Shown piece after piece: positions 4,402 through 17,728 of a DNA stretch of 60,227 nucleotides. The first letter of the stretch is position 1. Every line of letters starts with the position of its first letter. Below the pieces are notes generated by a model. That model was not told the DNA's origin. It saw only the letters and a list, made by a program, of their open reading frames with translations, and searched no databases. The translations under genes and the position numbers were made by a program. The DNA is from Clostridia bacterium. Its GTDB lineage: Bacteria > Bacillota > Clostridia > Oscillospirales > Acutalibacteraceae. The stretch spans positions 1 to 60,227 of the forward strand of contig JAFUPX010000016.1 in NCBI GenBank assembly GCA_017472575.1, read 5' to 3'.

Positions 4402-7128
4402 TTAATCCATATCTTTTCCGCAGCAGCGTTTATATTTCTTTCCGCTTCCGCAGGGGCAAAGAGCGTTTTTGCTTACAACACCTTTTCCTCTTACGGTCTG
4501 CGGCTTATCGCCGGTGCCGGTTTCCTCGGCAACCTTTTCGCGTTTTACCTGCTCATCCTTGCGCACTCTTACAGAAAGTACCAGTTTTGCAGTCTGCTCG
4601 CGGATAGTATCGGTCATAGCCGAGAACATATCATAGCTGTCGTTACGGTATTCAACCACAGGGTCATGCTGACCGTATGCACGAAGACCTATACCCTGAC
4701 GCAGCTGGTCCATATTATCAATATGATCCATCCAGTTGGTATCAACGCTTCTAAGCAGCATTACGCGCTCTATTTCGCGCATAGTGGAAGAACCGAACTC
4801 CTCCTCGCGCTTAGCGTAAATAGCGTGAGCCTTTTCCTTTAAGCTCTCAGCCACCTTTTCACTGGTTAAGCTGTTTAACTCATCTGTTGTATACTGTAAA
4901 TCTTCGGGCGAAGTTATCCATCCGAGGAAATAATCGCGCAGTCCCTTAAAATCCCAGTTATCAGCAACAGGGTCGCTTAAGAATATCTTGCAGTAGGAGT
5001 CAACCGTATCATCAATCATTTTCATAACCGTGTCGGTGATGTTATCCCCGTCAAGCACACGGTTGCGCTGTTCGTAAATAAGCTCACGCTGCTTATTCAT
5101 AACATCATCATACTGGAGGACATTCTTACGAATTGCGAAGTTCATGCCCTCTTTCTTCTTCTGCGCTCCCTCGATTGTACGGGATAACATTCCGCTTTCA
5201 AGCGGAACATTTTCTTCAACCTTTAAGGTATCCATCATAGTGGAAATTCTTTCTCCTCCGTAAAGACGCATCAAATCGTCTTCAAGAGAAATATAGAATT
5301 TGGTAACACCGGGGTCACCCTGACGGCCCGCTCGGCCTCTTAACTGATTGTCTATTCTTCTTGAATCGTGGCGTTCTGTACCTATAATGCAAAGTCCGCC
5401 CGCTTCTCTTACCTTTTCAGCCTCGGGAGCTATCTCTGCCTTAAACTTCTCGTAAAACTCTTTATAAGCGGCTCTGGCGGCGATAATATCGGGGTCGTCT
5501 GTTTCGGCGAAGCCTGTTGCCTCTGTAATAATTTCCTCGCTTAAGCCATCATGCCTTAGCTGAGCTTTGGCAAGATACTCTGCATTACCGCCGAGCATAA
5601 TATCGGTTCCGCGTCCCGCCATATTTGTAGCTATTGTAACGGCACCGAATTTACCCGCCTGAGCGATAATCTCGGCTTCCTTTTCGTGATGCTTAGCGTT
5701 TAAAACATTGTGCTTTATACCCTTTTTCTTAAGCAGTGCGGATAAAAGCTCGGATTTTTCAATTGTTACCGTACCCACAAGCACCGGCTGACCCTTTGCG
5801 TGGCACTCGGCGATTTTGTCAATAACCGCGAAATACTTAGCCTTTTCGGTCTTATATACCGCATCATTTTCGTCAATTCTGGCAAGGGGTTTGTTGGTAG
5901 GAATTTCAATAACATCCAGCTTGTAAATTTCCTGAAACTCGCCTTCCTCGGTCATAGCCGTACCGGTCATACCCGAAAGCTTGTTATAAAGGCGGAAGAA
6001 ATTCTGGAAGGTTATTGTGGCAAGAGTTTTAGACTCGCGGGCAACCTTAACTCCCTCTTTTGCTTCAATAGCCTGATGCAGACCCTCGTTATACCGTCTG
6101 CCGAACATAAGGCGGCCGGTAAATTCGTCAACTATGATTACCTCGCCATCCTTAACAACATAGTCAACATCCCTTTTCATAATACCGTGGGCGCGTATTG
6201 CCTGATTAACATGGTGAGCAATGGCAATATTCTCTGTATCGTTAAGGTTTTCAATATTAAAGTATTCCTCTGCCTTTTTAACGCCTGAGGGAGTAAGTGT
6301 TGCGGTGCGTGCCTTTTCGTCTACAACATAGTCACCGTCGTAATTTGTGTCCTCATCGCTCGCCTTATCGTCCATTTCCTTAACCTTAACCATTTTAAGG
6401 GATTTTGCGAAACGGTTTGCGGCGGCATAAAGGTCGGTCGATTTATCGCTCTGACCCGAAATAATAAGCGGAGTACGCGCCTCGTCGATAAGGATAGAGT
6501 CCACCTCATCAACAATAGCAAAGTTATGTCCGCGCTGAACACGCTGCTCCTTGTAAATTACCATATTATCGCGCAAATAATCGAAGCCTAATTCGTTGTT
6601 TGTGCAGTAGGTTATATCAGCCTCGTAAGCAGCCTTTTTAGCCTCGTGGTCCATACCATGAATAATAAGACCTACGCTAAGCCCCATAAAGCGGTATAAT
6701 TTACCCATCCACTCAGAGTCACGCTTGGCAAGATAATCGTTTACGGTTACTATATGGACTCCCTTGCCACTAAGTGCGTTTAGGTATGCAGGAAGAGTTG
6801 CAACCAAGGTTTTACCCTCACCTGTTTTCATTTCGCTTATTCTTCCCTGATGAAGAATAATTCCGCCGATTATCTGAACGGGGAAATGCCTCATACCAAG
6901 CACCCTATCCCCTGCCTCGCGGCAGGCGGCAAAAGTCTCAGGAAGTATGTCATCAAGAGTTTATCCGTTTGCAAGGCGTTCTTTAAACTCCGCTGTTTTA
7001 TTTTTAAGTGCCTCGTCCGAAAGAGCCTTATACTCCTCCTCCAAATCGAGCACTGCCTTTTGTAAGGGCAATATTCTTTTTATTTCCTTTTCGCTGTAAT
7101 TTCCGAAAAGAGCCTTTAATAAATTCAT
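4402..7128 (-). CDS. secA: Preprotein translocase ATPase SecA, interrupted by an in-frame TAA
   Basis: Full-length SecA reading frame from ATG 7128 (Shine-Dalgarno GAGGT) to the stop at 4402, 909 codons including two stops. It shows the N-terminus [19 protein letters not shown], the Q-motif [10 protein letters not shown], Walker A MKTGEGKT, the [15 protein letters not shown] helicase block, GRAGRQGD, and a C-terminal zinc-binding SEC-C motif ([13 protein letters not shown]). SecA drives Sec-dependent protein export at the membrane and is essential. Codon 56 (6961-6963) reads TAA where the family has lysine in GKTLDD, with the frame intact on both sides. Restart at GTG 6903, preceded by AGGGG, would give an 833-residue protein lacking 75 residues. 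A base error or a strain mutation is the simplest explanation. No second secA is in the window. Confidence 0.93.
6961..6963 (-). other. secA: In-frame TAA stop in secA (codon 56)
   Basis: The minus strand reads GCA AAC GGA TAA ACT CTT GAT GAC, where relatives have A-N-G-K-T-L-D-D. One base (AAA to TAA, plus-strand T to A at 6963) restores lysine. TAA also terminates many neighbouring genes, so stop-codon reassignment is not an explanation. Confidence 0.9.
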
Positions 7129-7193
7129 ATTCTTACCTCAAATCAGTAAATTCATCATATTATTATATAATAATTTTATTAACAAATAAAGTA

Positions 7194-8150
7194 TTATTTT
7201 AGTAAAATGGTATTTTTATCCGTTTTTTTAAGTCCGGAGGTTAAAATAAGCTCACCGTTTTTATCAATAAACACCGCCTCATATCCTGAAAGGCTTTCAA
7301 TAAGCTCTGTACCCTGCTCTTTTCCAATCAAAAAGCAAACGGTTGAAAGCGCATCACAGTCAAAGGAGCTATCCCCTATTATTGTAACACTCAAAAGGTC
7401 ATTTTCTACTCCGTAGCCTGTTTCTTTATCTAAAATATGGTGGTAGATAACCCCGTCCTTTTCGATATACCGCTGATAAATTCCCGATGTAACGGCGGAT
7501 TTATCCTTTAGCTTTAAAACGGCGCTTACTTCGCTTTCCTCGAAAGGAGTTTGTATCCCCACATTATATTCCTTACCGAAAACCAGTACATTTCCACCGA
7601 GATTAATTATTCCCTCGGTTACACCTTTTTCCTTGAAATACTCAAGTAAGCGGTCTGCTATATATCCCTTTGCAACAGCTCCGAGGTCTATTTTTTTGCC
7701 GTTTAAATTAACCATATTACCGTTAATTTCTATGCTCTGATAATCAATATTTTTAAGCGCTTCGGCAATTTCATCCTTAGAGGGGATAATTTGATTTTCA
7801 AAGTCCCAAAGATTGCTTAATTCACAAACCGTTATGTCAAACTTACCGCCGGAAATTTCCGAATAGTAAATTGAGCGGTCGATAATCTCCCGCGTATCGC
7901 TCGACACTTCAACAAAGTCATTCGAGGAATTAAGTAACGATACCTCGCTTGTTTCTACCGTTCGGCTTAATTTGTTTTCATACTCTTTGCAGACCTCGAA
8001 AGCGCCGTCCAGCGTATCATCATCGCAGGCGGCGGTGAGCTTTACAAAGGTATTAAGCATAAACCTTGTATCGGTATTTTCCTTTTTATCACTGCATCCG
8101 CAGAGAAGTAAAAGGACGAGTATCACATTAACGCTTAAAAACTTTCTCAT
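7194..8150 (-). CDS. apbE: FAD:protein FMN transferase (ApbE), lipoprotein
   Basis: A 318-residue ApbE-family protein. It begins with a lipoprotein signal peptide ending in the lipobox LLCGC (Cys19) and has the family segments DTRFMLNTFVKL, GGKFDITVCEL, DLGAVAKGYIADRL and the late DALSTVCFLIG. ApbE enzymes use FAD to attach FMN to a Ser/Thr of partner redox proteins (such as Rnf/Nqr subunits or extracellular flavoproteins), with Mg2+, outside the membrane. ATG 8150 is preferred over 8165 because the upstream ATG overlaps the -10 box. No Shine-Dalgarno precedes it, consistent with a leaderless message. It is divergent from the NusG-II/Gx pair, a recurring association. Confidence 0.92.
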   Translation of the reverse strand: MRKFLSVNVILVLLLLCGCSDKKENTDTRFMLNTFVKLTAACDDDTLDGAFEVCKEYENKLSRTVETSEVSLLNSSNDFVEVSSDTREIIDRSIYYSEISGGKFDITVCELSNLWDFENQIIPSKDEIAEALKNIDYQSIEINGNMVNLNGKKIDLGAVAKGYIADRLLEYFKEKGVTEGIINLGGNVLVFGKEYNVGIQTPFEESEVSAVLKLKDKSAVTSGIYQRYIEKDGVIYHHILDKETGYGVENDLLSVTIIGDSSFDCDALSTVCFLIGKEQGTELIESLSGYEAVFIDKNGELILTSGLKKTDKNTILLK

Positions 8151-8156
8151 AGAAAT

Positions 8157-8185
8157 ATTATACATTGTCTTTTATTTTTTGTAAA
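8157..8185 (-). promoter_or_regulatory. apbE promoter predicting a leaderless mRNA
   Basis: Minus strand TTTACA (8180-8185), 17-bp spacer, TATAAT (8157-8162). The +1 expected 7 nt downstream coincides with the A of the ATG at 8150, and there is no ribosome-binding site. Confidence 0.65.
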
Positions 8186-17081: not shown

Positions 17082-17728
17082 TTAGTCATCTTCTCCTGTT
17101 TTACTTTGTGGTCTATTACATGGCGGGAGGCAAGCTCATTGTGAATGTCCTCAAGCGAGATACCTGCTTCAATCATCAGTACCATTACATGGTAAGCGAG
17201 GTCTGCAATCTCATAGATAGTCTCATTTTTATCCTCGGCCTTGGCGGCGATAATAACCTCGGTTGACTCCTCACCGACCTTTTTTAGTATCTTATCCAAG
17301 CCTTTCTGGAAAAGATAGGTTGTGTAGGAGCCTTCCTTTTGCTCGGTTTTTCTGCCCTCGATAAGCTTTATCAGCTGTTCGAGAGAAAATTCGTGAAGCT
17401 CGTCATTCTGCCAGACTTTATTTTCAAAGCAGGTCTGTGTTCCGAGATGGCACGCAGGACCCTCAGGCTTTACAACAACTACAAGCGCATCCTTATCGCA
17501 ATCAGCTGTTATGGAGACTATATGCTGATAATTACCGCTGGTCTCACCTTTAAGCCACAGTTCGTTTCGGGAACGGCTCCAAAAGCAGGTAAGCTTTTTC
17601 TCCATAGAGATTTTAAGGCTTTCCTCGTTCATATAGGCAAGAGTGAGTACCTTTTTTGAAACCTCGTCCACAACAATCGCAGGGATAAGTCCGTTTTCAT
17701 CAAATTTAAGTTCTTTTATATCTATCAT
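17078..17728 (-). CDS. hisI: Bifunctional PR-AMP cyclohydrolase/PR-ATP pyrophosphohydrolase
   Basis: A 216-residue HisIE fusion covering steps 2 and 3 of histidine synthesis. The HisI half (about 1-115) has the metal and substrate motif [23 protein letters not shown] plus [12 protein letters not shown]. The HisE half (about 120-216) has the helical MazG-like motif [12 protein letters not shown] with acidic metal ligands. The fusion length is normal. It lies 3 nt after hisF and overlaps hisJ by 4 nt. Confidence 0.95.

Follow-up and report, generated by a model that had tools for sequence, protein, structure and literature searches.

An in-frame stop codon in secA of a Clostridia draft genome, very probably a fault of the assembly

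The interrupted secA frame and its codon 56

The window analysed here, a stretch of 60,227 nucleotides from a gut-dwelling Clostridia bacterium, carries a secA gene with a stop codon near its beginning, and raises the question of whether such a stop belongs to the living organism or to its assembly. The window is contig C38 of genome G000, which comprises 1,206,920 bases in 46 contigs (completeness 81.62, contamination 0.14). The secA frame has 908 codons and a stop and, read from the letters, contains no internal stop besides the TAA at codon 56 (Table 1), as the sequence-only reading had described. The SecA_DEAD profile matches the frame at 439.8 bits (cut-off 24.6) with one TAA inside the match, and SecA_PP_bind also scores above its cut-off. 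The encoded protein is 87% identical to that of the sister genome G031, which passes the NCBIfam SecA models, TIGR00963 included, and both flanks of the stop match SecA. The whole window frame is thus like that of the SecA preprotein translocase (TIGR00963 / PF07517) and differs by one TAA at codon 56, which keeps it from being an uninterrupted full-length SecA frame. As a fact of sequence, a TAA within a frame conserved on both sides exceeds what chance would give. Because of this TAA, the mechanical ORF call begins at GTG 6903, and the warning that start-site tools would return a SecA short by 75 residues proves correct. Immediately upstream of secA, at positions 7194-8165 of the minus strand, lies an ApbE-like gene (FAD:protein FMN transferase) with an NCBIfam score under the curated cut-off.

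Table 1. Positions of the secA features in the window and of other interrupted genes and twin contig ends in genome G000
Feature	Location	Strand	Remarks
secA frame	window 4402..7128	minus	begins with ATG 7128; the natural TAA has its end at 4402; one interruption
In-frame TAA, codon 56 of secA	window 6961..6963	minus	Glu in relatives from the genus
GTG, codon 76 of secA	window 6901..6903	minus	start in the mechanical ORF call, 833-aa product; plain Val codon in relatives
GAGG, Shine-Dalgarno-like	window 7136..7139	minus	7 nt upstream of ATG 7128; ordinary start
In-frame TAA in infB (IF-2)	L074 (G000:C6) 10317	minus	Glu 519 of sister; position 519 of 888
Adjacent TGA TGA in D-Ala-D-Ala carboxypeptidase gene (Peptidase_S11)	L074 (G000:C6) 17418-17423	plus	Arg-Cys in sister
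Frame change mid-gene in truB	L074 (G000:C6) about 7475-7412	minus	C-terminal part continues into ribF
TAA in flavoprotein gene (FAD_binding_2)	end of C20, G000		at Glu 107; basis: G031 alignment
Flavoprotein twin	L083 1-441 (C15) vs L087 8978-9418 (C20)		96.8% identical; GAA in C15, TAA in C20
AAA_23 + AAA_27 ATPase twin	L079 6632-6816 (C11 end) vs L117 2-186 (C30 start)		96.8% identical

Codon 56 is strongly conserved among close relatives. It encodes Glu in all 29 congener loci (26 GAA, 3 GAG) and in all 36 relatives that cover the position (32 GAA, 4 GAG), drawn from a set of 38 sequences that includes our own. The stop had been read as replacing the Lys of a GKTLDD motif through a plus-strand T to A change at 6963. 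Since the relatives have Glu and not Lys, neither part of that reading holds, and their codons imply a Glu ancestor and a different change. Among 80 named loci matching the G000 SecA, 79 cover the codon and have Glu (70), Ala (4), Lys (3), Gln (1) or Val (1), and never a stop; the solved SecA chain 1tf2, the best match, has Ala at the aligned position. Because the named loci vary there and 1tf2 has Ala, the identity of the residue at codon 56 is non-critical, while a stop there is critical.

The comparison with sister genomes that the sequence-only reading had proposed found no stop at codon 56 in any relative examined, none of which is from the same species, and among these the stop is private to the G000 assembly. 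In a search of the genus (70 genomes), 60 of the 69 congeners have one uninterrupted secA frame of 906-936 aa spanning codon 56. The other nine comprise G026, with a frameshift elsewhere in secA (L036, G026:C18, about 5800 in the contig), three genomes matched in pieces on two contigs, three with partial matches and two without a match. An exact search for a 39-base stretch in genome contigs gave 0 matches, in a collection from which own or near-own records may be excluded. In a survey of the order covering 394 genomes, of which 382 matched, G000 and G094 are the genomes with a secA stop among the best matches listed. G094 belongs to another family of the order and has an in-frame TAA at secA residue 146 (L308, G094:C131). 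The order relatives G039, G043 and G057 were considered as further cases of an in-frame TAA and rejected, being free of stops across the aligned range. In the metagenome-assembled genome RGIG8367, a TAG replaces the Glu of DEVD in secA (L280 position 1174, JAGAEK010000115.1); DEVD is a motif that we presume to have a role in SecA. The secA breaks of G026, G094 and RGIG8367 are isolated, private and unlike one another, which counts in favour of an assembly fault in G000 as well.

Other broken genes and overlapping contig ends

We aligned the ORFs of the sister genome G031 to a 625-kb portion of G000 that contains the window, and retained stops with conserved flanks. In-frame stops were found in 4 of 227 G000 genes (81,447 codons): secA, infB, a flavoprotein gene and a D-Ala-D-Ala carboxypeptidase gene. 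The reciprocal comparison under the same filter detected none in 232 G031 genes (82,074 codons), a small contrast (one-sided Fisher p 0.059). A further 80 kb of G000 provided 43 alignments (15,638 codons) and no additional stops. Several other candidates were set aside. The rows L149:1696-2205 and L156:1185-1925, with two stops each, lack a Pfam family, are overlapped by ORFs in other frames and were taken as non-coding. The row L156:9948-11153 was dropped for a stop at residue 23, before the start of its Radical SAM domain at 34, and L166:10338-11174 because over 900 bases separate its two matches, presumably a repeat. The two remaining rows with a frame change correspond to the truB-ribF stretch; the change lies in G000 and not in G031, which makes truB a fifth broken gene of G000. 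A looser alignment pass produced more rows with stops, most of them in the first 31 query residues, the rest being short matches of low identity, matches near the query end or the truB stretch.

The stop in infB is located within the match to the GTP-binding domain (393-547), so no internal restart could be expected to yield a working IF-2. All 29 other congener loci have Glu, Gly or Ser at this site and none has a stop, and the other matches to infB in the G000 letters searched are 28-34% identical at most. Stops had been flagged in the infB of nine other congeners. Eight of these were examined (G080 was left out): two flags lie at query residues 2 and 6, before the likely start, and the other six sequences are stop-free in the aligned range. 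The infB of the congener G084 contains a short gap and a frame change (L227, G084:C1, about 92084 in the contig). A cell in which secA and infB are both cut short should not live, and it is implausible that a viable genome would have acquired two independent breaks in genes of this kind, both being essential.

The interruptions of infB, truB and the carboxypeptidase gene fall within 11 kb of contig C6, where they affect 3 of the 14 sister-aligned genes, which suggests locally poor sequence. After the frame change, truB and ribF form one running frame in G000 and are two separate genes in the sister. Three of the four stop-bearing genes could have changed from GAA to TAA, compared with a 10.2% share of one-step chances (binomial 0.0039, a value that rests on small numbers and on the assumed codon before the change). 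Neither secA nor infB has a raised number of private missense changes at columns that are otherwise invariant, the counts being 3/538 in secA with the stop included (others 0-9) and 4/539 in infB (others 0-10). This test is weak because, as we calculate, secA and infB together should have gained no more than about one additional change.

Overlapping contig ends inside one draft genome offer an internal check on stop codons that needs no reads. In a search covering about 58% of the G000 letters, window included, we detected seven pairs of contig ends that overlap at 96-100% identity, over 2,120 bp with 61 differences (41 transitions and 20 transversions). The same places are therefore present in the G000 assembly in more than one version. 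Two of the seven pairs consist of a twin with stops and a twin that lacks them. The flavoprotein twins differ in 14 codons, ten of them silently, as in true strain variation. In the twins of the AAA-domain ATPase all five differing codons alter the protein, and within 61 codons C11 has TAA and TGA where C30 has GAA and TTA; these two stops are visible only through the comparison of the twin contigs. The disagreement of twins at stop codons means that the G000 letters include stops that are not fixed in the sampled population. Many of the twin differences resemble real strain variation, so that some of the stops may be true variants of a strain, located in genes it can do without. The secA stretch has no twin in the letters searched. 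Unlike both twin cases, the secA stop is away from the contig ends, lying 6,963 bases from the start of a contig of 60,227 bases.

The nature of the genome can be judged from its relatives. Fifteen of the 80 named loci match the G000 SecA at 81% identity or more; by their titles, all belong to metagenome-assembled genomes, under the labels Clostridia, Oscillospiraceae or Ruminococcaceae, and a ruminant host is named in ten of the titles. From these relatives and from its fragmentation, we infer that G000 is itself a metagenome-assembled genome. Cooley and Wright (2024, PMC11017572) report that the internal stops of assemblies frequently have a technical origin, become more common at low coverage and track assembly error. 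The breaks in G000 resemble the spurious pseudogenes with internal stops discussed there: they are isolated, occur several to an assembly in genes intact in relatives and are mostly stops. The two cases differ in that their study drew on public genomes with reads, reassembly and simulation, whereas G000 is known by its assembly letters alone and adds a mixture of strains at its contig ends. A literature search for metagenome-derived genomes with premature stops in essential genes found none.

The direction of the changes offers a further comparison. Oxidative damage (8-oxoguanine) is described in PMC12390751 as a known source of G-to-T sequencing artefacts. The internal TAA codons of G000 fit this pattern in that they sit at Glu of a relative or twin, and a change of GAA to TAA is G-to-T. 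They depart from it in being few, and the twin ends overall have 41 transitions to 20 transversions. An error of the G-to-T type behind the stops is thus possible.

It is very probable that the secA TAA is a single-base fault of a mixed assembly, either a base error or a non-viable minority haplotype, and not something that functions in the organism. This explanation is favoured because the stop is private, other genes of G000 are broken and twin contig ends disagree at stop codons; the sequence-only reading had named assembly error as one of three unranked alternatives. In a metagenome-type assembly with several near-identical versions of some places, the TAA would have originated from an error of base calling or consensus, or from a non-viable minority molecule taken up by the assembler. 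That low read depth was the cause is conjecture. The stops of the twin contigs directly support a similar origin for the secA stop, which we nevertheless only infer, since the secA stretch is without a twin and the contig end is 7 kb away.

Competing explanations

The best placed of the alternatives is a recent and real loss of secA function, in a sequenced lineage that is dying or that encodes another SecA in a part of its genome absent from the assembly, and we regard it as very improbable. One SecA was found in G000: in the profile search SecA_DEAD exceeds its cut-off at the window locus only, and SecA_PP_bind matches nowhere else. A second SecA_DEAD match, on C19, reaches 18.9 bits, under the cut-off of 24.6, and was rejected as a second copy. 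The absence of another secA from the window, noted earlier, thus extends to the rest of the genome as far as it is assembled; because G000 is 81.62% complete, there is some room for a missing copy. A second, partial SecA-like match was found in one of the 69 congeners (G028:C22:3754-4926, 47% identity), possibly an accessory SecA or a remnant. Elsewhere in the genus, a second match is either a split copy or, in four genomes, a short match to the C-terminal tail. A real loss would also have to accommodate infB, which is broken too and has only the distant matches given above.

The N-terminal part of secA shows no decay, and decay of this part was accordingly rejected as a candidate. With codon 56 excluded, the identity of residues 1-75 to relatives, taken as a ratio to that of residues 76-500, holds a middle position, with rank 14 of 36. 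Codon differences in residues 1-75 were counted against six relatives; silent changes outnumber replacements in five comparisons and equal them, 23 to 23, in the sixth. The secA stop, if real, would therefore be very recent.

A real nonsense codon followed by a restart at GTG 6903, or at the nearby Met of GMRHFP, would give an N-terminally shortened, working SecA, and is less likely still. The GTG is preceded by AGGGG 5 nt upstream, and the short product retains the VQ and GEGKT motifs, whose roles in SecA we take as given. The codon itself is poorly suited to a conserved start: in 35 relatives it is GTA (16), GTG (14) or GTT (5), a Val codon with a varying third base, and 3 of 36 sequences, our own included, have a Shine-Dalgarno-like string ahead of it. 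A conserved restart codon with a ribosome-binding site is thus lacking at GTG 6903, and the proposed rescue by restart finds no support among the relatives. Solved SecA chains align across most of the stretch that a restart would lose, the best from about residue 12. As for published work on the N-terminus, PMC5456053 cites a paper whose title names dispensable as well as required N-terminal residues, and one SecA-SecY structure does not show the first 13 residues (PMC6599042). On the other side, according to PMC5456053, SecA requires its first 25 N-terminal residues together with another domain to insert into the membrane, and deletions at the N-terminus have strong effects on its ATPase activity. 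A restart at GTG 6903 would also leave infB, truB and the twin contigs unexplained.

Decoding of UAA as Glu, by general or context-dependent recoding or by a suppressor tRNA, is barely credible, even though the four internal TAA codons in real G000 genes (secA, infB, flavoprotein and AAA-domain ATPase) all correspond to Glu in the sister or in a twin contig. TAA terminates 147 of the 232 G000 genes with sister matches, and two class-I release-factor genes (RF-1 family) are present, both stop-free. No tRNA with a UUA anticodon occurs among the 21 of 22 tRNA matches of this incomplete genome that were read by ARAGORN, the 22nd being a partial match under the cut-off at a contig end. Stop-codon reassignment is therefore not what the genome displays, and we rejected both a suppressor tRNA and the loss of a release factor, as well as the read-through proposed in the sequence-only reading. 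The other internal stops of G000 are TGA at Arg, Cys and Leu, twin contigs of the same assembly have GAA, and the truB frameshift would not be explained by UAA recoding. It would be very surprising if scattered Glu codons had become UAA and were read as Glu by a tRNA encoded in the unassembled part, with SecA, IF-2 and others made at full length while UAA ends most genes.

What the stop would mean

With a fault of the mixed assembly as the preferred explanation, the living population would most likely have an intact secA with Glu at codon 56, translated into a full-length SecA from ATG 7128. The SecA short by 75 residues and the cut IF-2 of G000 should accordingly not be annotated as truncated proteins or pseudogenes. 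The secA stop most likely has little biological significance and does not represent new biology.
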